A DNA stretch of 64,000 nt. It comes from Bacteroidota bacterium. Lineage in GTDB: Bacteria; Bacteroidota; Ignavibacteria; Kapaibacteriales; UBA2268. Of the stretch, positions 3,763 through 64,000 are shown in pieces. The first letter of the stretch is position 1, and the number at the start of each line of letters is the position of its first letter. The stretch lies in the NCBI GenBank assembly GCA_021780815.1, contig JAJXYC010000015.1, forward strand, positions 1 to 64,000, read 5' to 3'. A program made the position numbers and the translations under genes. The notes below the pieces were generated by a model that saw only the letters and a program-made list of their open reading frames with translations, searched no databases and was not told the DNA's origin.

Positions 3763-5390
3763 TAATTAAGTTTAACTTGTTTAAAATAAATTTTCTTTGT
3801 TGCTTCAAATGCCACAAATAAACCAAGAACTAATAGTATTATAGATATTATAAAAAGCAATATATTATCTTGTTTAAAGTAAGCAATACTATTTAGAACA
3901 AGTGAAGTTTCAGTAATTATTAACATAATAAATGCAGGAATTAAAGTATAATATTTTGGAGATTTAATCCCAAATAAATATGCAGATACAGTAAATAAAG
4001 CTAATGTAGCAATTAATTGGTTTGAAGCACCAAAAATAGGCCAAACTGCTTGATAACCATTCCCTATACATAATAAAAATGCTAGAAGTAAACTTGAACC
4101 AGAGGCAAAATAACGATTTTTAAAGATACCTCCATATCTCAACCCAAGCGTTTCTTGAACGACATATCTATTTAATCTTGCCGAAGCATCTAATGAAGTT
4201 AAAATAAAAGCATTAAGCATTAAAATCCCAAATTGCACACCAAAAGCCAGTGGAATTCCAAATACTTGAATAGCTCTTCCAAGTGCATTACCAAATACAA
4301 TTTCAGCGCTTTTCCCTAAAAAACTTTGGAATGAATTTGCTAATCCAGTCGAGTTCGGATCCCAAATAAGCACACTTGAAATCATTGTTACAACCAAAGC
4401 GGCAAGAAGACCTTCTGTAAGCATTCCGCCATAAGCAATTTTTTGTGCATTTTCTTCTTTATCAAGTTGTTTTGCCGTTGTGCCAGAGGCGACGAGCGAG
4501 TGAAAACCAGATATTGCTCCACAGGCAATTGTTATGAAAAGCATTGGGAACAAAGGTACATTATGGTTTGAAAAAGCAATGTATTTTGGTCCTGTAACTA
4601 CCGGGTTAAGTATCATTATACCGAATATTCCAAGGACCATACCAATAAATAAAATATAAGTTGAAATATAATCTCTCGGTTGCAATAACAACCAAACAGG
4701 AATAATAGATGCTACAAAAGAATAAATAATTATAATTATAAGCCAAGTGTAATAACTAAGATAAATAGGTAAATAATTCCCTACCCAAACACTTAAAATT
4801 AAAGCAATAAGAGCCAAAAAAGTCGAAAAATATACATTAATTTTCCACCTATAAACCATTAACCCAAAAACAATTGCTATGAAAATTAAAGCAATTGTTG
4901 GAAAAGCAATTTCAGGTTGTTCAATAATAGTTTTAGCTGTTAAATCAGCAAAAACAGCTTGAACCAAAGTTAATGTTAGCCAAACAAATACACCAAATAA
5001 AGTACTCGTCGTCCTTGAAATTGCTCCATCAGCAATTTCTACGATAGAACGACCTTGATTTCTCAATGAAACTACTAATGATGAAAAATCATGAACAGCT
5101 CCCATAAATACTGACCCAACTAATATCCAAATCATTGCAGGCAACCAACCAAATAAAGCATAAGCTAATATTGGTCCAACGATAGGTCCTGCACCAGCAA
5201 TTGCTGAAAAATGATGCCCAAAAAGTATTATTGGCTTTGCAGGTACATAATCCATTCCATCGTAATTTGTCTGAGACGGAGTTGGATTGTTCTTGTTTAC
5301 TTTTAGTATCTTCCCAATTTTTCCACCATACCAAAAGTACGTGAAAATAAACCAAACTAGCACAAAAAGCATTAGTATAAGTGCATTCAT
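3762..5390 (-). CDS. cstA: CstA family carbon starvation / peptide transporter
   Basis: Integral inner-membrane transporter of the CstA family, known for peptide or pyruvate uptake during carbon limitation. The 542-residue chain is hydrophobic almost throughout, with many membrane segments. The family-typical motif GHHFSAIAGAGPIVGP lies near 58-73, followed by GSVFMGAVHDFSSL and a conserved GFHSLVASGTTAKQL loop. It is shorter than E. coli CstA (~700), as in many compact homologues. The ATG at 5388-5390 gives a first membrane segment immediately. It is followed without a gap by the metallophosphoesterase (TAATG overlap), implying a two-gene operon, and a -7-like box lies upstream. Confidence 0.93.
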   Translation of the reverse strand: MNALILMLFVLVWFIFTYFWYGGKIGKILKVNKNNPTPSQTNYDGMDYVPAKPIILFGHHFSAIAGAGPIVGPILAYALFGWLPAMIWILVGSVFMGAVHDFSSLVVSLRNQGRSIVEIADGAISRTTSTLFGVFVWLTLTLVQAVFADLTAKTIIEQPEIAFPTIALIFIAIVFGLMVYRWKINVYFSTFLALIALILSVWVGNYLPIYLSYYTWLIIIIIYSFVASIIPVWLLLQPRDYISTYILFIGMVLGIFGIMILNPVVTGPKYIAFSNHNVPLFPMLFITIACGAISGFHSLVASGTTAKQLDKEENAQKIAYGGMLTEGLLAALVVTMISSVLIWDPNSTGLANSFQSFLGKSAEIVFGNALGRAIQVFGIPLAFGVQFGILMLNAFILTSLDASARLNRYVVQETLGLRYGGIFKNRYFASGSSLLLAFLLCIGNGYQAVWPIFGASNQLIATLALFTVSAYLFGIKSPKYYTLIPAFIMLIITETSLVLNSIAYFKQDNILLFIISIILLVLGLFVAFEATKKIYFKQVKLN

Positions 5391-7244: not shown

Positions 7245-8120
7245 ATGTTAAAAAGTATGACGGGATTTGCCCGCTCTGAGTATCAAAAAGATTATTTAAA
7301 AGCAACTGTTGAAATACGTTGCGTTAATGGGAAGTTGCTCGATGTAAATTGCAGAGTTCCTAAAAATATGCAGCACCTTGAAACCATAATAAGAGAACTA
7401 TTAAAAAGCAAAATCTCTCGTGGTTCGGTCTCTGTAAATTTAAGTATTGAAAACACTGATTTAACTAAAACTTTGTCTTTAAATTCTGCAAAAGCAAAGG
7501 CAGTTTTAGATTCTCTCAACACATTAAAATCAGATCTGAAAATCAAAGAAACAGTGAAAATTGACCAAATCTTAAAGTATTCCGATTACTTTACTGAACC
7601 AACGGAAGAACTTGATGAAAAATTACAAATTCACGTTCTTCGTCAAGTAATGAACCAAGCTTTGATCAATCTTGAAAAAATGAGAGTTAATGAAGGCAAA
7701 AATATTGAAAAAGATATTTTTGTAAGGATGAAAAAAGTTCAAAATACAGTTGATAAAATTAGAGTTCTTGGATTAGAAAAAATTCCAAAGGAAAGAGACA
7801 AATATCGTCAAAAAATTGCACAACTTTTTGAAGGCGATGAAATTGACGAACAACGTATCTATACTGAAATGGTCCTTCTTGCTGATAAACTTGATATTTC
7901 GGAAGAATGTGTTAGACTAGATTCTCATTTTAAATTCTTCAATGCAGCTTTAAAAGAAAACGATTCAGTAGGACGAAAAATTAACTTTTTGCTACAAGAA
8001 ATGGGTAGAGAAATTAATACTATCGGTTCAAAATCTTACGATTCGGAAATTTCTCAATTAGTTGTTATTTGCAAAGAAGAACTAGAAAGAATCCGTGAGC
8101 AAATTCAAAATATAGAATAA
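7245..8120 (+). CDS. yicC: YicC/YloC family endoribonuclease
   Basis: A 291-residue member of the YicC family, implicated in RNA turnover and stress survival. The start LKSMTGFAR and the end GREINTIGSKSYDSEIS...EELERIREQIQN are the invariant N- and C-terminal signatures of the family, and length matches. A GAGGAAAT Shine-Dalgarno-like tract just before the ATG supports the start. It is followed after 13 bp by comF. Confidence 0.93.
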   Translation: MLKSMTGFARSEYQKDYLKATVEIRCVNGKLLDVNCRVPKNMQHLETIIRELLKSKISRGSVSVNLSIENTDLTKTLSLNSAKAKAVLDSLNTLKSDLKIKETVKIDQILKYSDYFTEPTEELDEKLQIHVLRQVMNQALINLEKMRVNEGKNIEKDIFVRMKKVQNTVDKIRVLGLEKIPKERDKYRQKIAQLFEGDEIDEQRIYTEMVLLADKLDISEECVRLDSHFKFFNAALKENDSVGRKINFLLQEMGREINTIGSKSYDSEISQLVVICKEELERIREQIQNIE

Positions 8121-8133
8121 AAAAACAAGAAAG

Positions 8134-8844
8134 ATGGAAATAACTTTAGTTGCAAAAAAGATATTTCATTCAATTTGCGATTTAGCCGCTCCTAAATATT
8201 GCTTTTTGTGTAATAAACCAATTGATAATCATTTCCATCTTTCTTATATTTGCCCAGATTGTTTTTATAATTTACCTTCGGCAAGCGATTCAAACGTAAT
8301 TATTTCAAGACTATTACAATCATTTTCTGCTGACGATATTGGAGTTTCTGATATATTTTCGTTGTTTTCGTTGAAAGATACAGATTTTTTAAAGATTGTT
8401 CATAGCTTAAAATACGAAGGTTTGTACAGTATTGGTTTCGAATTTGGTCTTCTACTTGGACAAAAAATCAAAGAAAAGAATTCTACCAATTACGATTACA
8501 TCTTACCTGTGCCTATTCATTCTGCTAAAAAACGAGAAAGAGGCTATAATCAATCGCTTCATATTGCTCGTGGAATAAATTCCATCTTAAAAACTGAAAT
8601 TAATGAAAAATTAGTTATTCGTGGCAAATATACACAATCTCAAACACTATTAACAGCATCTCAAAGAAAAGAAAACGTTAAAGACATTTACCGAGCTAAT
8701 CCAACAAAATTCAATCTTGATAATAAAACTGTGCTAATTGTTGATGATGTTTTTACTACAGGTTCTACAATTAATTACCTATCATTAACGTTATTGAATA
8801 ATGGAGTAAAGAAAGTAGATGCCGCAACAATTGCGTTAGCATAA
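8134..8844 (+). CDS. comF: ComF family phosphoribosyltransferase-like protein
   Basis: A 236-residue ComF protein, a family tied to DNA uptake and processing in competent bacteria, though its biochemistry is unsettled. An N-terminal four-cysteine zinc site (Cys23, Cys26, Cys40, Cys43) is followed by a phosphoribosyltransferase fold with ERGYNQS and the PRPP-binding loop VLIVDDVFTTGST near 200-213. Length is normal for the family. It is co-directional with yicC and the metal ABC transporter. Confidence 0.92.
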   Translation: MEITLVAKKIFHSICDLAAPKYCFLCNKPIDNHFHLSYICPDCFYNLPSASDSNVIISRLLQSFSADDIGVSDIFSLFSLKDTDFLKIVHSLKYEGLYSIGFEFGLLLGQKIKEKNSTNYDYILPVPIHSAKKRERGYNQSLHIARGINSILKTEINEKLVIRGKYTQSQTLLTASQRKENVKDIYRANPTKFNLDNKTVLIVDDVFTTGSTINYLSLTLLNNGVKKVDAATIALA

Positions 8845-53699: not shown

Positions 53700-54527
53700 T
53701 TAAAAAGAGTCAAATGGACTCATCACATTTGCAATTTTAGAAGAACTTACTTGAGTATAAATTTGTGTTGTTTTTATTGAACTATGCCCAAGTAATTGTT
53801 GAATAACCCTAATATCAGTACCAGATTCCAAAAGATGTGTGGCAAAACTATGCCTTAAAGTATGAACAGATGCCTCTTTACTAATTTTTGCCTTACGTAG
53901 TGCTTGCTTGAATATAGATTGTATCGAGCGAGCAGAATACTTATCTCCTTTCTGACCTTCGAACAAATACTCTTTGGGCTTATAATCTTTGTAATATTCT
54001 CTTAAAAGAGATAAAATTCTCTCTGAAAGCATTACATAGCGGTCTTTCTTGCCTTTACTCTGCACTATTTTAATCAACATTCTTTTTGAATCAATATCAT
54101 TAACTTTCAGATCAATTACTTCATTTAGCCGCAATCCGGCACTATATATTAATGCTATAATCGTTCTGTGTTTTAAATTTTGGATAGAATTAATTAAAAG
54201 TTGAACCTCTGATTTATCTAAAACATTAGGAAGTTTATTTTCAGTTCTATCGGGATAAAGATAATTAAGTTTGTAACTTTTTCGAAGCAACTCATTGAAA
54301 AACAATTTAATTGCTCCAACGAGAACCTTTTGGTATGCTTGAGAAATTTTTTTTTCAGTCACCATAGAATTTAAGAACTTCTCGATTTCGCAAGTTGTAA
54401 TCGAATCAGGTTCTTGCTTTGGAAATGCATCTAAGAATATTTTCAGAGCATTAGAGTAGGACTTTATAGTGCGATAACTATACCTTTTTATAGTCAAAAG
54501 CTTTTTAAAATCATCTAAATAGCTCAT
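53700..54527 (-). CDS. Tyrosine recombinase of the cassette array (integron-integrase-like in position, Xer/phage-like in sequence)
   Basis: A 275-residue tyrosine recombinase with an N-terminal SAM-like core-binding domain and a complete catalytic set: Arg133 in AGLRLNEV, Lys158 in SKGKKDR, His202/Arg205 in HTLRHSF, His228 in LLGHSS and Tyr237 in QIYTQV. Unlike IntI integrases, it has no extra ~20-35 residue block between the VMLSERI strand and the HTLRH box. It points away from six co-directional cassettes with the attI-like junction 95 bp from its ATG, the standard intI layout. The ATG at 54525-54527 is preferred; an in-frame ATG at 54644 would make it translate through attI. The paralogue at 63001 has nearly the same length. 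Confidence 0.9.
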   Translation of the reverse strand: MSYLDDFKKLLTIKRYSYRTIKSYSNALKIFLDAFPKQEPDSITTCEIEKFLNSMVTEKKISQAYQKVLVGAIKLFFNELLRKSYKLNYLYPDRTENKLPNVLDKSEVQLLINSIQNLKHRTIIALIYSAGLRLNEVIDLKVNDIDSKRMLIKIVQSKGKKDRYVMLSERILSLLREYYKDYKPKEYLFEGQKGDKYSARSIQSIFKQALRKAKISKEASVHTLRHSFATHLLESGTDIRVIQQLLGHSSIKTTQIYTQVSSSKIANVMSPFDSF

Positions 54528-54628
54528 TTTAAGTTTCACGCATACATTCACAATAGCATACAATTTTAGAAGGTTTGACGTATCTTCTATAATATTATTT
54601 ATTATTTTCGTCAAGAAATTTGTTAGCG
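54528..54628. other. attI-like primary recombination site
   Basis: This spacer between the recombinase start and the first cassette ends in GTTAGCG (54622-54628), a GTT core triplet like those that begin every later cassette. The extended GTTAGCGGTA is the exact reverse complement of TACCGCTAAC at 55285-55294, the left edge of the first cassette's closing palindrome. The site lacks a large palindrome of its own, as known attI sites do. Confidence 0.6.
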
Positions 54629-54642
54629 GTAATTTTATCGAC

Positions 54643-55293
54643 ATGAAACAAAAACAAGAAACATATTATTCAGGAAGGGTAAAAGGACTATTAGCTTTTA
54701 GAAACGACATTGATGGAGCATTGAATATTTTAACAGACAATGGTCTTAATATAACTCTTCAGGACGACAAGCATATTTACGACAGTATAGAAGAAATAAT
54801 TAAAAATGTCGGTAATAGTCCCCTAAAAATCAAAATTGAAGCTAGAAATAAAGAGACATATGAATCTGTGGGATTAAGTTTCGACAAAAGTGAATTATCC
54901 ATAAGTTGCCATGGTAGCGAACAAATGTATTCATTGGGATTTAGATTAAGGAACTATTTTGCAGAAACAATCCCCTGGCATTATAAAATATTCAACCCTT
55001 GGATATTTTATTTTACAACTTTTACTCCCATAACATACGCTTTCGACAAGACAAGTGGTGAAATAGTCAGACCTTGGATTTTAATACCACTTGGTTTGAG
55101 TTTAACTCTTTGGATTTTCTCTTATTTTCTGAGAAAGAATGCTTATGGAATTAGACTGATTAGAAATCATGAACATGGGTTCTGGAAAAGAAATAAAGAT
55201 AATTTAATTGTGTCAATAATTTCAACCCTAGTTGGTGCGGTTTTAGGAGTAATAGGGACACTCTTAATACAGCATATTAGTAACTACCGCTAA
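54643..55293 (+). CDS. Cassette 1: membrane protein of unknown function
   Basis: A 216-residue protein with a soluble N-terminal ~110 residues (acidic/basic mix, no motif recognised). It then has up to three hydrophobic segments: ~120-132 (FYFTTFTPITYAF), PWILIPLGLSLTLWIFSYFL (~144-163) and a C-terminal VSIISTLVGAVLGVIGTLLI (~188-207). The ATG is 15 bp after the attI-like core, and the stop codon lies inside the R'' of the closing palindrome, typical of tightly packed integron cassettes. No cassette promoter is visible, so it likely depends on a promoter in the attI/recombinase region. Function unknown. Confidence 0.72.
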   Translation: MKQKQETYYSGRVKGLLAFRNDIDGALNILTDNGLNITLQDDKHIYDSIEEIIKNVGNSPLKIKIEARNKETYESVGLSFDKSELSISCHGSEQMYSLGFRLRNYFAETIPWHYKIFNPWIFYFTTFTPITYAFDKTSGEIVRPWILIPLGLSLTLWIFSYFLRKNAYGIRLIRNHEHGFWKRNKDNLIVSIISTLVGAVLGVIGTLLIQHISNYR

Positions 55294-55418
55294 CACGGGT
55301 TTTGCGTTAGTGGGCGGACAGTGCGAATAGAAACATTTGAGCAATTAATAAACGTTGGTGCTGGCAGACAGTTTACGGTTTCAAAAGCCCACCAACGCAA
55401 AGCCCGAAACCGTTATGC
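55288..55418. repeat. attC-like site 1 (131 bp)
   Basis: The left edge R'' is CGCTAAC and the right edge R' GTTATGC. Arms CGGGTTTTGCGTTAGTGGGC and the complement of GCCCACCAACGCAAAGCCCG pair with few mismatches. The layout is R'', one A, stem, centre, stem, AAACC, R'. It holds the stop codon of cassette 1. Confidence 0.75.
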
Positions 55419-55437
55419 TTAATAAAACTGAATGGAT

Positions 55438-55467
55438 TTGAGCATTGATGTAAAATAACTACATTTG
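55438..55467 (+). promoter_or_regulatory. Cassette-borne promoter for the MvaI/BcnI-type system
   Basis: TTG (55438-55440), exactly 19 nt, then TACATTTG (55460-55467): the full Bacteroidota -33/-7 pattern. It starts 20 bp inside cassette 2 and 21 bp before the ATG at 55489, leaving a short leader. Carrying its own promoter frees the cassette from the array's leading promoter. Confidence 0.65.
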
Positions 55468-55488
55468 CAAAAAATAATAAACGATAAA

Positions 55489-56169
55489 ATGACAATATTA
55501 GAATTTACTACAAAATTTAAAGAACTAAAAGACAAAGGATTTATCCCAACTACTCGACGTGGTCCAACTGGAATTGGACATACTTTGGAAACAAATCTTG
55601 GAATAAGTGAAAATAACGACGCACATCCTGATGTTGAAGGTGCAGAATTAAAAGCACATAGAACGAAAGGCAATAGTTTAATTACACTTTTTACATTTAA
55701 CAACAAAGTTTGAAAAATGCCACCGCTTGAAGCAGTTAAAAAATATGGTAGCTTAGATAAAGACGGCAGACAAGGTCTTTATTATACAATGTCATTAAAA
55801 CCAAATAGTGCAGGACTTTTCCTTGATGTACAAAAATTAGAAATTTCTGTCAGACATATTTCAGGCAATATCATAGCAACTTGGCAATTAAAAACTTTGG
55901 CAGATAGATTTATGCAAAAAATGCCTGCATTGCTTTTTGTGTCGGCATTTACAGAAGAACGAGACGGATTAGAATATTTCCATTTTTACAGAGCGCAATT
56001 AATGAAAGGAACTTCACCAGAATTATTGGCAGACCAATTCAGAGCAGAAAATATTTTGGTTGACTTGCGACTTCATGACAAAGGAACACGAGCAAGAAAT
56101 CATGGAACTGGATTTCGAGCTTATGAAGATAAATTACCATCACTTTTTCAAAACATTACAGATTTATGA
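55489..56169 (+). pseudogene. Cassette 2: MvaI/BcnI-family restriction endonuclease, interrupted by an in-frame TGA
   Basis: The frame from ATG 55489 reads FIPTTRRGPTGIGHTLE, LGISENNDAHPDVEGAELK and then LITLFTFNNKV. It meets TGA at 55711-55713, and continues in the SAME frame with K then MPPLEAVKKYG... to the TGA at 56167-56169. Joined, the two parts (74 and 150 residues) match the MvaI/BcnI type II endonuclease family, with a Trp codon (TGG) the likely original at the stop. A new ATG follows the TGA after three bases, so translation could restart and give two pieces. TGA is a genuine stop elsewhere in this window, so the protein is probably split or inactive. The methyltransferase gene overlaps its end (ATGA). 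Confidence 0.82.
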
Positions 56170-57398
56170 AATATCAAGTAATTCGCAATGAAAAATATGA
56201 TTTTTTAGGACAATTTTATGCTACAAGTTATCCAAACTTGCATAAATATCCAGCAACAATGTTACCACAAATTGGAATTGAAGTTTTAAAAGAATTAAAC
56301 ATTTCAAAAGGCAAATTGCTTGACCCTTATTGTGGTTCAGGTTCTTCATTTGCAAGTGGTTTAGAATGTGGAATTACAGAAATGTTTGGTTTTGATATTA
56401 ACCCATTGGCAATTTTAATTTCAAAAGTAAAATTTACAAAAATTTCAGTAAATACAATTATTGAAACAAAAGCAAAATTACGCAACGAAATATTTGAATT
56501 TGTTAAAAACGAACAAAATATTAACAAAATCAAATTACCAAACATAACAAATATTGATTTTTGGTTTTCAAAAGAAGTTGCACAAAACCTAAATATCATA
56601 AAACATTTTATTTATCAAATTCCAGACGAAAATATAAAAAATTTTTTCCTTGTTCCATTTTCCGAAACCGTTAGAGATTGTTCTTATACAAGAAATAGCG
56701 AATTTAAACTCTATCGTATGAAATCGGAAGACCTTGTTAATTTTAATCCAGATGTATTTGGCGTGTATTTCAAAAAACTAAATGATACAATATTTATTTA
56801 CTCAAATATTTATTTCCCCAAATTAACAGACGATATAAAAGTAGATGTTCAATATTCAAAATTCCAACCTAATGAAAATTCATTTGATGTAGTATTAACA
56901 AGTCCACCTTATGGTGATAGCAGAACAACTGTTGCTTATGGACAATTTTCAACGCTTTCAAACGAATGGACAGGTATAGATTATGCAAGAAAAATAGACG
57001 GCATGTTAATGGGCGGAATTAAAGCTAAATCAATTTTAAAAACTGGTGTAATTGCTGACTATATTTCCGAAGTAAATAAAGTAGATAACAAACGAGCATT
57101 AGAAGTAACGTCATTTTATAACGATTTAGAAGTATCTATTAAGAAAGTTGCTAAAAGTGTAAAAACAAATGGTAAAGCGATTTATGTTGTTGGTAATAGA
57201 ACCGTTAAAAATATTCAACTACCAACTGACCAATTTATTGCTGAAAAATTTGAAGAACAAGGATTTAGGCATTTAATTACTTATGAAAGAGCATTAAGCA
57301 GTAAATCTATGCCTTCTAAAAATTCACCAACAAATATTACAGGAAAGACAGTAAATACAATGCTTTTTGAATATATAGTGATAAATGAAAAAAAATGA
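56166..57398 (+). CDS. Cassette 2: DNA methyltransferase, probably N4-cytosine type, of the MvaI/BcnI-like system
   Basis: A 410-residue amino-methyltransferase. The AdoMet motif LLDPYCGSGS is at 51-60, and the catalytic motif TSPPYGDS at 245-252. SPPY is typical of N4-cytosine enzymes, as expected beside an MvaI/BcnI-type nuclease (partners known to make m4C). The region between the two motifs (~100-240) is likely target recognition. The ATG overlaps the nuclease stop by four bases (ATGA), so the two are co-translated. It appears intact, so it may now protect DNA alone. Confidence 0.88.
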   Translation: MKYQVIRNEKYDFLGQFYATSYPNLHKYPATMLPQIGIEVLKELNISKGKLLDPYCGSGSSFASGLECGITEMFGFDINPLAILISKVKFTKISVNTIIETKAKLRNEIFEFVKNEQNINKIKLPNITNIDFWFSKEVAQNLNIIKHFIYQIPDENIKNFFLVPFSETVRDCSYTRNSEFKLYRMKSEDLVNFNPDVFGVYFKKLNDTIFIYSNIYFPKLTDDIKVDVQYSKFQPNENSFDVVLTSPPYGDSRTTVAYGQFSTLSNEWTGIDYARKIDGMLMGGIKAKSILKTGVIADYISEVNKVDNKRALEVTSFYNDLEVSIKKVAKSVKTNGKAIYVVGNRTVKNIQLPTDQFIAEKFEEQGFRHLITYERALSSKSMPSKNSPTNITGKTVNTMLFEYIVINEKK

Positions 57399-57404
57399 AA
57401 ATAA

Positions 57405-57551
57405 GCATAACATATGGTAGAGCGTTCATTGCTTTTTTTTGTGGGCATTTGTGCAAACTTGAAACTTTGTGCAAGAATGATACATTTGTGCAACTTTGAA
57501 ACGATAGTGCCTTGAAATCCCGCAACATACGCATATTGTTTTCCGTTGGGC
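57405..57551. repeat. attC-like site 2 (147 bp)
   Basis: R'' is GCATAAC (TAAGCATAAC pairs exactly with the start of cassette 2) and R' GTTGGGC, which fits the classic GTTRRRY core. The stem is less perfect than in site 1 (ATATG near the left pairs with CATAT near the right). The centre holds repeated GTGCAAACTT and TGTGCAACTTTGAAAC elements, adding length. Confidence 0.65.
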
Positions 57552-57613
57552 GTCATTATGAGAACCTGCTTATAGACACTGAATAAATATTAAATAATTA
57601 TTCATTCAAGTAT

Positions 57614-58489
57614 ATGGAAATATTTAGACAAATAACTGCTAACAATATCAATCTGAAAGAATATCCATTTGGGAAAGAGCTTGCGATGGAAGCTTATCTT
57701 TTGGAGAATGAGGATATATTGATCCTTGACAAACAGAATTTCAATGATGTAACAGTATTAGATGCCGAAATTGCAATTAAAGCTGGAAGAAAAAACGGGG
57801 ATGGTCGAATAGACATTTTAACCAAATACGGTGGTGAGTATTTAGGCATCGTTGAAATAAAACTTAATGAAATTAATGAATCAACTCTTAACCAATTACA
57901 AGATTATTTGGATCAAAAGGAGCAAATTTTGAGATTAGGTACTTTTTGGACAGAAGATATTGAACCCAAATGGGTTGGATTAATGGTTGGAACATCAATT
58001 AGTACTGATTTACAGGAAAAGATTAGAAACGGATATGATTATAAGGGAATTCCAATAGCAGGAATGATTATTCGTAGATTTCGAAGCGATGAAAACGAGA
58101 TATTTGTTGTTTCTGATACAATTTTTTCATTTAAGTACTCAAGTAAGGACTATTCAAAGTTTGTCTTTAATGGCAAAGAATTTAATAAAGGTCGACTTGT
58201 AAACGAAGTTATTAAGCATTACGTAGAATTAAATCCGCAAATTACTTATTCTGCTTTAAAAAATGCTTTTCCTGATAGAATTCAAGGAAGTTTCGGAGTT
58301 TTTGACAAGACTGCTAATGCTGAAGATATATATAAACGATGGGGACATAAAAGACACTATATAGAACCTCAAGAATTGATTAAACTAAATGATGAGACGA
58401 TTTCGACCTGTACACAATGGAATCCTAAGAATATTGCAGATTTTATAAAAAGAGCAAATGAACTTGGACTTAATATAGAAATAAAATAA
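57614..58489 (+). CDS. Cassette 3: PD-(D/E)XK nuclease-like protein
   Basis: A 291-residue protein. Residues ~1-95 show the PD-(D/E)XK layout: GDGRIDILTKYGG (Asp67), then YLGIVEIKLNE (Glu81, Lys83), very like NucS/DUF91-type nuclease domains. The C-terminal ~190 residues (with GVFDKTANAEDIYKRWGHKRHY) are not recognised and might bind a target. Domain and setting between two restriction-modification cassettes suggest a nuclease in phage defence (inference). The ATG lies 62 bp inside the cassette. No promoter pair was found. Confidence 0.72.
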   Translation: MEIFRQITANNINLKEYPFGKELAMEAYLLENEDILILDKQNFNDVTVLDAEIAIKAGRKNGDGRIDILTKYGGEYLGIVEIKLNEINESTLNQLQDYLDQKEQILRLGTFWTEDIEPKWVGLMVGTSISTDLQEKIRNGYDYKGIPIAGMIIRRFRSDENEIFVVSDTIFSFKYSSKDYSKFVFNGKEFNKGRLVNEVIKHYVELNPQITYSALKNAFPDRIQGSFGVFDKTANAEDIYKRWGHKRHYIEPQELIKLNDETISTCTQWNPKNIADFIKRANELGLNIEIK

Positions 58490-58494
58490 CGAAC

Positions 58495-58627
58495 GCCCAA
58501 CACGCAATATAGCCAAAAAGGGCTTTTGTGGTATGCGAAGGTTTGTAGCCCGCTTCAACTTTTCGTGTAACTTGACAGGACAGTGCTTCGAAATCGTCAA
58601 CAAAAACATACCGCCAAACCGTTAGCG
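58495..58627. repeat. attC-like site 3 (133 bp)
   Basis: R'' GCCCAAC (ACGCCCAAC pairs with the start of cassette 3), R' GTTAGCG. Stem GCAATAT near the left against ATACCGC near the right, with the AAACC spacer before R'. The centre contains GTGTAACTTGACAG (58565-58578), shared with sites 4 and 6. Confidence 0.75.
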
Positions 58628-58686
58628 GCAACCAAGTAGACCCGCGATAATTTGAAACAGCATTAGAATTTTGAAACATCTTTTAA

Positions 58687-59554
<868 letters not shown>

Positions 59555-59601
59555 TGAGAAGTAAAAAAAGAAAAAGTAATGCCATAGAATGAATTGGCAG
59601 C

Positions 59602-59731
59602 CGCCAACACGCAATATACAAAATTGGGGTTTAATAGGTTATTCAAATGTTGTGGCTCGCTTCAAATGCCGTGTAACTGGACAGGAAAGTGTCCACGATT
59701 TCCCTTACTGGCCATACCGCCACCGTTGTGC
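59602..59731. repeat. attC-like site 4 (130 bp)
   Basis: R'' CGCCAAC (GCCGCCAAC pairs 8 of 9 with the start of cassette 4), R' GTTGTGC. Left stem GCAATAT, right ATACCGC, spacer ACC before R'. Its centre contains GTGTAACTGGACAGG, like sites 3 and 6. Confidence 0.75.
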
Positions 59732-59781
59732 ATAATTAGAAAAAACACCCTACATTATTGAAAATTAGTAATTTGACAAGT

Positions 59782-60342
59782 ATGAAATTTGTATTTCCAA
59801 ATAAGGCAAAAAAGATTGAAGATAAGTTCTTCGAATTCAGCTTTGATGATAGAGACCCACAACCAGAGGATTATAAATTGCTTGACTCCGCTTCTTCATT
59901 GCATTATTTAGCGGATATTTATAATTGGGATGATGGAGAGGAGGTTCTTGATTGGATTATAAGCAATCCAAAATGTGATAAAGGAACTGCACTGATGATT
60001 TTTTGGAGAGCCGAACCAGACTATTATACAAGATATCAAGACGAGACTGATGCAGACCATGATGCAGAAGAATTCCGTTTTGTAAAAAAGATAATTCATA
60101 ACTTTGAGACAGGATTTTATAAAAGAGAACAGATTCACTATGACCCAAGTGCAGATGGACATGATGTTGACTATATTGACAAAAATGCAAAATGGGAGAT
60201 TCCAGACTTAATGAAAAAGAGCACTAAAGGCGGAAATGTTTATTATATTCCCGACCCGATAGACTTGATACAAAAATGGTGGTCTGATTATAAAAGGAAA
60301 CAACATAGGAAAAAGCGAAAAAAACGACTGAGTAAAAACTAA
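59782..60342 (+). CDS. Cassette 5: DUF4274-like protein
   Basis: A 186-residue soluble protein. The stretch LHYLADIYNWDDGEEVLDWI and the following NPKCDKGTALMIFWRAEPDYY match what I recall of DUF4274 domains (uncharacterised). The C-terminus is strongly basic (KRKQHRKKRKKRLSKN), which could bind nucleic acid. An in-frame TTG at 59758 is possible, but the ATG at 59782 is preferred. The stop lies 4 bp before the next palindrome. Function unknown. Confidence 0.68.
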   Translation: MKFVFPNKAKKIEDKFFEFSFDDRDPQPEDYKLLDSASSLHYLADIYNWDDGEEVLDWIISNPKCDKGTALMIFWRAEPDYYTRYQDETDADHDAEEFRFVKKIIHNFETGFYKREQIHYDPSADGHDVDYIDKNAKWEIPDLMKKSTKGGNVYYIPDPIDLIQKWWSDYKRKQHRKKRKKRLSKN

Positions 60343-60346
60343 CTAT

Positions 60347-60476
60347 GCACAACAGCTGGTATAAGCAATAGCGGGGCTTGTGGGGTGCAAAGGTTATCGC
60401 CAGCCTCAAACTTATTGTAAACTGATAGGTGATCGCCCTGAAAACCGCTCCTGCTCATACCAGCAAACCGTTTTTC
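60347..60476. repeat. attC-like site 5 (130 bp)
   Basis: R'' GCACAAC (pairs over 14 of 15 bases with the start of cassette 5), R' GTTTTTC. A strong stem is GCTGGTATAAGCAATAGCGG against the complement of CCGCTCCTGCTCATACCAGC, with one A after R'' and AAACC before R'. Confidence 0.78.
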
Positions 60477-60607
60477 GTTTCCTACAATTATTACAATAAT
60501 ATTTTGATGATTCGTTAAAAAATATATATAATTGGCGGAAACTCTTTTCAGATTTTAGGTGTAGCCAGCAGTCAACGAAATGATAAGAATAACTTTACTT
60601 TAAATGT

Positions 60608-61699
60608 ATGAATATTACAGCAAAAATTACAGGTATAAGATATAAAGTTCACTTTACAGACAACTTACAAAAAATTGAGGTGACTGACTTTGACATCAAT
60701 AAAGTCCCGTCCGCATGTATTATCAATGACGGCAAATATTCATTCGCCATTTCAAAATGGGTTTCGCCAAAGCGAACACGTTCATATCCTTACGAAAGAG
60801 TTTACAACACACTCAGTTTTTCCAAAAAGATTACAGTAATTCCAATCGTTAAGGACGAAGGCACAGCAGGCGACAGAGATTTTATCCAGTGGGATACTGT
60901 TTCGTTAATGAGTTTGTTAGATGTATTTGTAATTTTCGCATTCTACGAAAAAGCGGATAAGGCAGACCAAAAAATTACAAATCAACAATTCAATAATAAG
61001 TACGTTCTTGCTAAAATCAAAGAAATTGAAAACTATCATAGTTCTGCATTGCATTGGAATTTACACGAACTAAACACCAATTTACATAGTATTATTGATA
61101 AAGTAAAAACTTCTTACTCAAAAATAGAAAAATTAACGGGAGTAAAACTTCACAATCCCAATGGGATAGACAATTTTAAAGAAAAAATCGGGAAAGACGT
61201 TTCATTATTTATGGCTTTTTCAAGGGATAAAGCAAAAAAAGCCCAATCAAGAGAGTTCGTTACTCAACAACCCAAAGAAAGTTTATCTACACTCACAAAA
61301 GCAAAAATTACCATAACAAACTATTTAGGCGGACAATATTTTTTGACTGTCGATGAAATTTTACTTTCCAAAGATAAGGTAAGTTTAATTGAAGGAAAGC
61401 ATAGCACAAACGCATTATTCCCAAGCAAAGGAGATATAAAAGACGGTTTGTTGAAAATGATTTTATATTGTAACCTTTCAGATGTTAGTGCAAATGGAAA
61501 GAAAATAAAAAGTGAATCTGTTTTATCTTTGACTTCAACAAAGCTTAAAGGTTCAATAACTTCTTCAAGCACAAAGAAAGAAATATCAACCTTTTTTGAA
61601 GTAAATAAATTTTCAAAACTTCAAAGATTGTTGGTTGAAACTATTTTTGCAGAAGCAAAACAAAATAAATTTATCATTACAATCCAATTTTCAAAATGA
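60608..61699 (+). CDS. Cassette 6: probable type II restriction endonuclease
   Basis: A 363-residue protein whose stop overlaps the adenine methyltransferase ATG (ATGA), the usual packing of a nuclease with its methylase. A likely PD-(D/E)XK centre is Asp249 (FLTVDEILL) and Glu262/Lys264 (SLIEGKHS). The family is not recognised with certainty, so the nuclease call rests on this motif and the neighbour. The N-terminal ~230 residues may hold the specificity region. The ATG lies 138 bp into the cassette, and a weak TAACTTTA box sits 11 bp before it. Confidence 0.68.
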   Translation: MNITAKITGIRYKVHFTDNLQKIEVTDFDINKVPSACIINDGKYSFAISKWVSPKRTRSYPYERVYNTLSFSKKITVIPIVKDEGTAGDRDFIQWDTVSLMSLLDVFVIFAFYEKADKADQKITNQQFNNKYVLAKIKEIENYHSSALHWNLHELNTNLHSIIDKVKTSYSKIEKLTGVKLHNPNGIDNFKEKIGKDVSLFMAFSRDKAKKAQSREFVTQQPKESLSTLTKAKITITNYLGGQYFLTVDEILLSKDKVSLIEGKHSTNALFPSKGDIKDGLLKMILYCNLSDVSANGKKIKSESVLSLTSTKLKGSITSSSTKKEISTFFEVNKFSKLQRLLVETIFAEAKQNKFIITIQFSK

Positions 61700-62562
61700 T
61701 AAAAAGTCCATTAAGATATCCGGGTGGTAAAAGTAGAGCTGTGGAATTAATTTCAAAGCTTTTACCCGAATTTGACGAATTTAGAGAGCCATTTTTAGGT
61801 GGTGGTTCAATCTTTATCTATGCTAAACAACGATTCCCAAACAAAAAATTTTGGGTTAATGACCTCTATTTAGAATTATATAAATTTTGGGAAATGGCAC
61901 AAAAGAATGTTGATGCTTTGATTGAAAAAATATATGAATGGAGAAATCGATTTCCAATCGGTAAAGAATTACATAAATTCTTAAATACAAATTTGGAATG
62001 TTTTAATGATTTAGAAAGAGCAGCAGCATTTTTTATTTACAATCGGATTACATTTTCGGGCACAAGTTTAAGTGGTGGTTTTAGTGAACACGCTTTTATA
62101 GGCCGCTTTACTGAAAGTAGCATTCAACGACTTAGTCAATTTGCAAAAATTATAAACGGTGCAACTATTACAAATCTTGATTACGAGGAATTGGTAAAAG
62201 AAAAAGGTGAAAATGTATTTATTTTTCTTGACCCACCCTACTATTCAGCCACAAAATCTGCATTGTACGGGAAAAATGGGAATATGCACAAATCATTTGA
62301 CCATATAAAATTTGCCGAAACAATGCGAAATTGCAAACATAAATGGCTAATTACTTATGACGACAGCAAATACATAAGAGATTTATTTTCTTATGCAAAT
62401 ATAATCCCTTGGGACTTAACTTATGGAATGAGAAATGTAACAGATTGTTCAGACCAAAAAGGGAAAGAATTATTTATATCAAACTACTTAGAGTTTTTGC
62501 CTAAAAACGAACAACTTACTTTGTTTGAGCCAAAAGTGAACTATGAAAGGGCAATCAAGTAA
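61696..62562 (+). CDS. Cassette 6: D12-class N6-adenine DNA methyltransferase
   Basis: A 288-residue Dam/D12-type adenine methyltransferase. It has SPLRYPGGKSRAV at the start, the AdoMet loop FREPFLGGGSIFIYA, the typical FIYNRITFSGT block and the catalytic DPPYYSAT (179-186). It is coupled by ATGA to the probable restriction enzyme, so together they form a type II restriction-modification system. It ends 23 bp before the last palindrome. Confidence 0.93.
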   Translation: MIKSPLRYPGGKSRAVELISKLLPEFDEFREPFLGGGSIFIYAKQRFPNKKFWVNDLYLELYKFWEMAQKNVDALIEKIYEWRNRFPIGKELHKFLNTNLECFNDLERAAAFFIYNRITFSGTSLSGGFSEHAFIGRFTESSIQRLSQFAKIINGATITNLDYEELVKEKGENVFIFLDPPYYSATKSALYGKNGNMHKSFDHIKFAETMRNCKHKWLITYDDSKYIRDLFSYANIIPWDLTYGMRNVTDCSDQKGKELFISNYLEFLPKNEQLTLFEPKVNYERAIK

Positions 62563-62585: not shown

Positions 62586-62731
62586 AAAGAACAACGAAAC
62601 GGTAACAAAGACTATAAAAAATTGCCGAGTCAGTGCGGGTTTCAGCGTTTCTACATCTAATAAATTTTTGTGTAACTTGACAGTGGAGTGCTTCGCAATC
62701 CCCGCCTTCGCCAATCGCCAAACCCTTATCT
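62586..62731. repeat. attC-like site 6 (146 bp), degenerate
   Basis: The left edge is near AAAGAAC and the right edge CTTATCT after AAACC, where the first G of the usual GTT is C. The centre has GTGTAACTTGACAG (62670-62683) and GTGCTTCGCAATC, as in site 3. The R'' pairs only 5 of 7 with the start of cassette 6, so the site looks worn. Confidence 0.6.
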
Positions 62732-63000
62732 GCAACGTAGGATTACCAATACTTAGAAACAAAATATTGATTGAATAATTAGAATTATTAAATTTGCACC
62801 GAAAAAGTATAAATATAAATTGAAGCAAAATACATTGACATACATTTCATTATTCAGTGATACATAAATTGGTTGCTACGGAGCCAGATAATAAATTTTA
62901 CTGCATGCAACGGTTGATATTTATCATCTACCCATCGGCTTTGATTACATTCAAGTTTGAGGTTTTACAGAATAATTTGTTGCAGTGATGTAAAATCGTT
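62732..63000. other. Cassette-end spacer with a promoter but no intact gene
   Basis: No open frame over ~30 codons is convincing. A plus-strand TTG-N19-TAAATTTG promoter lies in it, followed by a short frame containing LTYISLFS before a stop, which faintly resembles the first residues of C5-cytosine methyltransferases. It may be what is left of a seventh cassette. Confidence 0.4.
62767..62796 (+). promoter_or_regulatory. Orphan promoter-like pair TTG-N19-TAAATTTG
   Basis: TTG at 62767-62769 and TAAATTTG at 62789-62796 are exactly 19 nt apart, the same layout as the cassette 2 promoter. It starts 36 bp inside what would be cassette 7 and points at no intact gene. Confidence 0.5.
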
Positions 63001-63825
63001 TCAGAATGAATCGAAAGGATTTTTAATTTTCGAAATATTTGCATTCGAAATATGAGTATATATTTGAGTAGTTCGAATATCTTTATGACCTAAAATTTCT
63101 TGAATTATTCTTATATCTGTACCCTGCTCTACCAAATGTGTTGCAAAACTGTGGCGAAGAGAGTGAACAGTTATTTTCTTAGTAATTCCGCACTTTTGCA
63201 AAGCTTTCCTTAAAACGTTTTGTATGCTTTTAGATGAATACTCATCTTTGAACTGCCCTTGAAACATATGTTCTTTTGGATGGTATTGTTTGTAATAATC
63301 CCGTAATAATTCCAAAAGTTTTGCGGAAAGTTGTACATATCTATCCTTTTTCCCTTTGCCTTGCACTATTTTAATCAACATTCTTTTCGAATCAATATCT
63401 GCAATTTTTAAATTAATACATTCACTTATTCGTAATCCGCAGGAGTAAATCAACGAAATAATAGCTTTATGTTTAATGTTTTCAATAGAATCGATTACAT
63501 TCTTTACTTCTTGGATACTTAAAACGTTCGGCAGCTTTGATTTGCGTTTGATACCCTTAAGGTAATCATTGTTGAGTTTCTTACCAAGTACCAACTCTGA
63601 AAAAAGTTTAAGAGCAATTATAGAATTTTTTATATAACTATAGGACTTATCAAAAGTTTTCAATTGTTCAACATATTTAAAGAGTAAATCTTTATCGAGA
63701 TCAATCTCACGATAGTTCCATTTTCTAAATTGAATCAGTGCATTATTATAGTTGCTAATAGTACCTTCGCTATAGTTACGAATAATGAGGATTTTGCGAA
63801 ACAATAGAATTTGATCATCAATCAT
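63001..63825 (-). CDS. Second tyrosine recombinase, paralogue of the one at 53700
   Basis: A 274-residue recombinase with all catalytic residues: Arg132 (SCGLRISE), Lys in GKGKKDR, His201/Arg204 (HSLRHSF), His227 (LGHKD) and Tyr236 (QIYTHIS). It shares long blocks with the first recombinase, including DIDSKRMLIKIVQ and the terminal PFDSF, and likewise lacks the IntI insert. The ATG at 63823-63825 gives the same length as the first; an in-frame TTG at 63879 is less likely. Its upstream side faces the right edge of the window, where another array may begin. Confidence 0.88.
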   Translation of the reverse strand: MIDDQILLFRKILIIRNYSEGTISNYNNALIQFRKWNYREIDLDKDLLFKYVEQLKTFDKSYSYIKNSIIALKLFSELVLGKKLNNDYLKGIKRKSKLPNVLSIQEVKNVIDSIENIKHKAIISLIYSCGLRISECINLKIADIDSKRMLIKIVQGKGKKDRYVQLSAKLLELLRDYYKQYHPKEHMFQGQFKDEYSSKSIQNVLRKALQKCGITKKITVHSLRHSFATHLVEQGTDIRIIQEILGHKDIRTTQIYTHISNANISKIKNPFDSF

Positions 63826-63849
63826 TCTTGATACTCCGTATTTTTGCAG

Positions 63850-63924
63850 GTTATACGAAATAAACGATTTTTGTAACAATTAATTTTGTAATTTGATATT
63901 ATAAAATTATGTAATTCGTATAAC
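63850..63924. other. Possible second attI-like junction beside recombinase 2
   Basis: GTTATACGAA (63850-63859) and TTCGTATAAC (63915-63924) are perfect 10-base complements 55 bp apart. They mirror the R'/R'' pairing of the array, and the right one is followed by A as in the attC-like sites. No gene fits between, and the rest lies outside the window. Confidence 0.35.
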
Positions 63925-64000
63925 AACGAATTATGGCCAATTTAGAGAACGAAATACACAATAGGGAAATATGAACTTTGAATTAACACGTTTTATATAT

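Follow-up and report, generated by a model that had tools for sequence, protein, structure and literature searches.

Two probable head-to-head integron-like platforms with I2-less recombinases in a Bacteroidota bacterium

In integrons the first bases of a gene cassette pair with the 5′ end of the cassette's own attC site, and both meet in the excised circle. The literature treats the I2 helix of the integron integrase as the innovation that enabled integrons. Deletion of I2 abolishes the function of IntI1, and the sequence of the ancestor is not known (PMC7790495, PMC4792948). The insertion has been called essential for integron function and yet 'not fully conserved' in an integron-like subgroup (PMC8138268). 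No description of an I2-less integron was found in the literature searched, a search with preprints and most subscription journals outside its scope, and priority is uncertain. Two published observations bear on this subject. For the adjacency of xerD to tet(X) no explanation was given (PMC7473080), and a 2026 paper on Riemerella described how aph(3′)-IVb is taken up without homology, with fixed segments of 27 bp (5′) and 140 bp (3′) and attC-like folding, and names no recombinase (PMC13148043).

The window, i.e. the whole stretch of 64,000 nucleotides analysed here, is the first 64 kb of contig C16 (535,853 bp) of a 2.63-Mb Bacteroidota genome. An original prediction had placed a second recombinase, a paralogue of the first one, at its right edge. 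Indeed, the ORF 63001–63879 on the minus strand at this end encodes an intact tyrosine recombinase (B), which shares 52% identity over 269 amino acids with recombinase A (274 vs. 275 aa). The ATG at 63825 is more likely to be the start of B than the TTG at 63879; the orthologues in L029 and L032 (84 and 80% amino acid identity) start at the same place. All catalytic residues (R, K, H-R, H, Y) are kept in A, B and the aligned family members.

An arrangement in tandem, with one recombinase per platform, had been suggested as well. Extension to the right (L008, C16:50000–69999) revealed the expected palindromic sites and three co-directional cassettes on the plus strand beyond B, closed by attC-like sites. 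Because an array with closing sites extends to the right of B as it does to the right of A, the locus is very probably a tandem of two complete, head-to-head, integron-like platforms with I2-less recombinases (Table 1). Each platform comprises a leftward recombinase gene, an attI-like site at its start and rightward cassettes, each ended by an attC-like site.

Table 1 Features of the two putative platforms (positions refer to the window, which shares its numbering with the contig)
Feature	Position	Strand	Remarks
Recombinase A	53700..54527	-	275 aa; same family as B, 52% identical to B
attI-A distal arm	54572..54583		GGTTTGACGTAT; comparison
attI-A proximal arm	54606..54615		TTTCGTCAAG; predicted crossover G|TTAGCGG at 54622|54623
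Cassette A1	54643..55293	+	ORF of 216 aa without Pfam match (Pfam search)
attC-like site 1	55286..55420	-	R1 99.7 bits; bottom strand modelled
Cassette A2	55465..57398	+	MvaI/BcnI-type restriction endonuclease and type II methyltransferase
attC-like site 2	57403..57553	-	81.8 bits
Cassette A3	57614..58489	+	ORF of 291 aa, weakly similar to candidate defence family PDC-S57
attC-like site 3	58493..58629	-	113.9 bits
Cassette A4	58699..59499	+	aldo/keto reductase
attC-like site 4	59600..59733	-	103.6 bits
Cassette A5	59758..60342	+	DUF4274 protein
attC-like site 5	60345..60478	-	108.2 bits
Cassette A6	60608..62562	+	type II restriction enzyme and D12-class adenine methyltransferase
attC-like site 6	62598..62733	-	degenerate, last of array A; 54.2 bits; R′ = CTT instead of GTT
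Recombinase B	63001..63825	-	tyrosine recombinase, 274 aa; start ATG at 63825; without IntI-specific I2 insertion
attI-B distal arm	63850..63859		GTTATACGAA; identical in L029, L032
attI-B proximal arm	63915..63924		TTCGTATAAC; complementary to distal arm; orthologue comparison
attI-B predicted crossover	63930..63931		A|TTATGGCC; first cassette of array B starts at 63931 and runs beyond the window
Array B cassette 1	from 63931	+	ORF of 391 aa; attC at contig 65152–65287
Array B cassette 2		+	ORF of 263 aa and LGT/PAP2 membrane protein of 650 aa
Array B cassette 3	C16:68259–69806 (L008:18260–19807)	+	AriAB-type (PARIS-like) anti-phage ATPase-Toprim protein, 515 aa
Array B attC-like sites	contig 65152–65287, 68101–68223, 69816–69939		covariance model

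As in integrons such as the one on the Vibrio cholerae chromosome, the recombinase is divergent from the array with an attI-like site between them, the closing sites are imperfect bottom-strand hairpins, the crossover falls at G|TT, cassettes follow an own-start/own-end rule, and their contents are rich in defence and resistance genes. In contrast to integrons, the recombinase is without I2 and lies outside the IntI clade, the attI-like site has an inverted distal arm, and the foot of the hairpin carries a one-sided bulge of about 4 nt plus an invariant G·T pair; furthermore, many relatives have a co-directional recombinase with attI at its 3′ end. A and B resemble the XerA/XerC/XerD recombinases of dimer resolution as short insertion-less tyrosine recombinases, and the XerA-type model NF040815 is the best-scoring NCBIfam model for both. 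Unlike these, they are linked to cassette arrays, have no conserved dif-like core and lie outside the clade of the separate XerC/XerD-type genes of the genome (C9, C18).

Array A spans 54.6–62.7 kb, with six sites and two restriction-modification modules among its contents. The endonuclease of cassette A2 is apparently split over two ORFs (55465–56169), the second of which matches only the second half of the Pfam model. A gene whose protein is 63% identical to that of A3 stands at the head of the L104 array (Flavobacteriaceae), and other genera have copies of site 1 (96–97% identity across about 125 bases) that are not accompanied by the gene next to it in cassette A1. Ordinary chromosomal genes follow beyond 70 kb of the contig. 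The left-flank gene was found in 8/8 same-genus genomes and the right-flank gene in none of them at the threshold used; no empty site was derived.

The attC-like sites have a length of about 135 nt and match no Rfam family. Eight of them were aligned as bottom strand, and RNAalifold yielded a 16-pair stem for this seed. A covariance model of the eight sites (R1) was run over the whole genome and detected nine sites at E<1e-9, all within the two arrays and in one orientation; the next match had E=0.011. In the seed 87% is paired, and 19 cells are double-changed compared to 7.9 ± 2.2 after shuffling (reached in 0/500 shuffles) and to at most 7 in slid versions of the alignment. An alignment of 56 sites from 25 loci showed 205 double-changed cells (71 ± 6 shuffled) and 92% paired cells, a fraction inflated by fitting of this alignment to R1, to which the eight-site seed had not been so fitted. 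A G·T pair that the bottom strand alone can form is present in 55/55 sites with letters at this position. Since the full-length folding energies of the two strands are mixed (bottom favoured at 5/8 sites, RNA parameters), the argument for the bottom strand rests on the stem pairs and not on total energy. The locus shares with integrons its tandem cassettes, each closed by an attC-like site with bottom-strand folding.

The original prediction had also named a perfect inverted pair beside the start of B. GTTATACGAA and TTCGTATAAC are fully complementary and extend to 22-nt arms at 82%. A pair of this kind within one AT-rich region of 170 bases is mildly unusual (4/100 shuffles reach it); because the shuffle test is weak in AT-rich DNA, the support for the arms is their conservation. 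In both L029 and L032 the distal arm GGTTATACGAAT is kept exactly, and the proximal arm is present at the same position with changes (TTCGTAAATA and TTCGTAGATA, respectively). Thus, the pair holds up in close relatives, and it is best read as the two arms of a putative attI-like site, conserved with drift in the orthologues. Two other interpretations were discarded. The pair had been taken for the start and end of a cassette, with a closing site whose R″ should match GTTATAC. The R″ of the first closing site of array B (GCCCATAAC) does not match GTTATAC and pairs instead with the cassette start TTATGGCC at 7/10 positions, which rules out the cassette-end reading of GTTATACGAA/TTCGTATAAC. A symmetric core of the Xer/Cre type (AATTCG-8-CGAATT) had been proposed in addition. 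The symmetric sequence AATTCGTATAACAACGAATT, with 6-bp arms and an 8-bp spacer, is present, but its right half is not kept in L029 and L032, and a Xer/Cre-type core was therefore rejected as unsupported.

Comparison of upstream regions revealed an attI geometry common to A, B and eight homologues. A distal GGTTWTACGMA-like arm is followed after tens of bases by a proximal TTKCGTATAA-like arm, a few bases, the crossover and the cassette start, with the consensus G|TTRGCGG; the base 5′ of the attI-B crossover is A, not G. The attI-like site is made up of two inverted boxes and, after them, a predicted crossover point before TT. Co-variation of a site's own arms is modest (284/20,000 permutations reach it). 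By comparison, both arrays and the homologues possess a putative attI next to the recombinase with the canonical insertion point. Where a relative's recombinase runs in the direction of its array, a site of this type lies 3′ of the stop codon, e.g. GATAAACGCAATTGCGTTTATCCAATTG|TTGTGCC in L104.

For the nine cassettes of the locus, complementarity between own start and own end is 8.0/10, compared to 3.8/10 for foreign ends, and only one of 362,880 permutations, the true pairing, reaches the total. Thirty cassettes outside the window gave 5.7/8 (own) vs. 2.6/8 (foreign), and with the window cassettes added 0/20,000 permutations reached the observed value. The few failing cassettes probably span an undetected site. 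Pairing of own start and own end requires a circular intermediate. Together with the tet(X) breakpoints described below, own-end complementarity points by comparison to excision of cassettes as circles and their re-insertion at G|TT. A and B would be the enzymes that recombine the sites and thereby the cassettes, presumably acting on a single-stranded substrate, and the exact course of strand exchange is likewise presumed in this scheme.

The integron integrase model TIGR02249 matches A and B in two pieces and below cut-off, with about 60 model positions unmatched, and a profile search of the whole genome found no canonical IntI over this cut-off. In an alignment with canonical Bacteroidota IntIs the insertion (about 31 plus about 11 residues) is missing from the family, residue spacing is about 61 vs. 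100–105 in IntI, and A and B show no IntI-specific domain (I2) near patch III. The C-terminal IntI motif SP[LF]D is common to both groups. An AF2 model of the recombinase (pLDDT 84) contains no extra helix, and its top PDB match is the VchIntIA-attC complex (2a3v).

In the phylogenetic tree, which the columns of the I2 insertion were filled too sparsely to enter, IntI (100/100), Xer (100/100) and the I2-less family (95/95) each form one clade. The I2-less family is sister to a group of IntI plus I2-less Patescibacteria and Firmicutes proteins (95/91), in which the Patescibacteria proteins are nearer to IntI than the A/B family is. The simplest reading would be that the A/B family never had I2. 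A and B also differ from XerC/XerD, which form the separate Xer clade and act at a single dif site. The tree places I2-less recombinases from L137, L141 and L143 (Patescibacteria) and from L165 closest to canonical IntI; L141 has one weak site match.

Judged from the genomes compared, the A/B family is widespread in Bacteroidota. Among 60 genomes (the window's own and relatives) the family is present in 17, 16 of which have R1 sites, and sites occur in 8 of the 43 family-less genomes. According to this, one relative has a family recombinase without detected sites and eight have sites without a detected family recombinase. Class-wide, 51/197 genomes contain sites at E<1e-6. Sites beside a recombinase were found in Flavobacterium aciduliphilum, Algoriphagus ornithinivorans, a Cyclobacterium, Winogradskyella ursingii and Algibacter onchidii. 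The majority of these have their sites 3′ of a co-directional recombinase. L097, L103, L107, L117, L127, L154, L061, L064 and others likewise have a co-directional recombinase with a 3′ attI, often with an N-terminal extension. The geometry of these co-directional lineages is the opposite of that in the window. The surroundings of some close relatives of the recombinases are those of a phage or plasmid and contain no strong sites.

The 'xerD-tet(X)' units of Flavobacteriaceae and Acinetobacter resemble the platforms in that the xerD analysed, a family member, has behind it an attI-like site and then a cassette start G|TTATGTGCC. The 'xerD' upstream of tet(X3) on an Acinetobacter plasmid is placed within the family in the tree (69% to Aquiflexum L115, 52% to A), and the junction ...TATACGCCATTTGGCGTATAGCCACTTG|TTATGTGCC... 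consists of an attI-type site and a cassette start. It differs by the attC of the tet(X3) cassette, which is cut short, and by an adjoining ISVsa3 element; the adjacency was published as unexplained (PMC7473080). The 'xerD-tet(X)' pairing, noted long ago, fits a recombinase with attI and first cassette. A family recombinase and an attI-like site also precede tet(X) in L209:2967–4988 (NZ_CP104735.1) and L213:2380–4720 (G045). In the complete chromosome of G045, which belongs to the order of the window's genome, the tigecycline-resistance gene tet(X), an OXA-type and an aadS-like gene come as cassettes after a decayed recombinase, with R1 sites between each; the designations OXA-type (class D beta-lactamase-like) and aadS-like come from reading the translations, not from a family search. 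The start of the G045 tet(X) cassette pairs 10/10 with the 5′ end of its attC-like site.

One and the same tet(X2) unit is found on unrelated plasmids from three genera, Riemerella (L214), Sphingobacterium (L215) and Empedobacter (L216); it starts with CCG|TTATGTGCC and ends with AAACG|TT, and the flanks beyond are unrelated. At the level of sequence, these breakpoints correspond at base resolution to cassette movement at the predicted crossover. Capture of a cassette by a system of this kind would fit the uptake described in Riemerella. In a mobilizable plasmid of Flagellimonas (L207, NZ_CP092416.1, 8038–9813) erm(F) is the gene immediately upstream of a family recombinase, and no more than two site matches, both weak (E about 6e-4), lie nearby.

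The platforms thus appear integron-like on every comparative test and fail the one protein feature that defines the family. We consider it reasonably likely that they belong to a second integron lineage, widespread in Bacteroidota, with folded single-stranded attC sites and integrases that never had I2, and that this lineage first carried tet(X) and further resistance genes of Bacteroidota. A canonical integron, either with an IntI that lost I2 secondarily and decays or with a canonical IntI encoded elsewhere to move its cassettes, would agree with the canonical look of the cassette rules and with the frequency of IntI in the phylum (over cut-off in 84/296 sampled genomes). We regard it as improbable, as the genome has no IntI over cut-off, the I2-less clade lies outside that of IntI, the catalytic residues are kept, and none of 15 canonical IntI loci has a full-length R1 site at E<0.04. 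Slightly less probable still is the action of the host XerC/XerD on the folded sites of otherwise integron-like arrays in place of A and B, in the way that XerC recombines certain single-stranded phage genomes. Xer proteins without I2 do use folded ssDNA in CTXφ integration (PMC7790495), but here the presence of the family predicts the presence of sites in the 60 genomes, and the attI-like site adjoins A/B-type genes in both gene orientations.

The sites might finally be dispersed repeats or terminators and the recombinases their chance neighbours, engaged in Xer-like dimer resolution or acting as phage-type integrases. The phage and plasmid recombinases among the relatives and the XerA-like best model would be in line with this, but the complementarity test contradicts it, recombination at G|TT is needed to account for the own-start/own-end rule and for the exact breakpoints of tet(X), the strong sites of the genome are all confined to the two arrays, and separate XerC/XerD-type genes are present, which makes this the least probable of the explanations.

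If a second lineage exists, I2 would be dispensable for integron function, cassette systems may predate I2, and tools that depend on the IntI domain would miss the lineage. A natural I2-less family with attC-type arrays makes the role ascribed to the I2 helix testable. The lineage would also offer a possible explanation for xerD beside tet(X) (PMC7473080) and for the Riemerella uptake with fixed flanks (PMC13148043). In L058 (G008:C29) two closely similar family recombinases (3905–4774 and 7809–8669) apparently arose by duplication, and one attC-like site lies just before the first of them.
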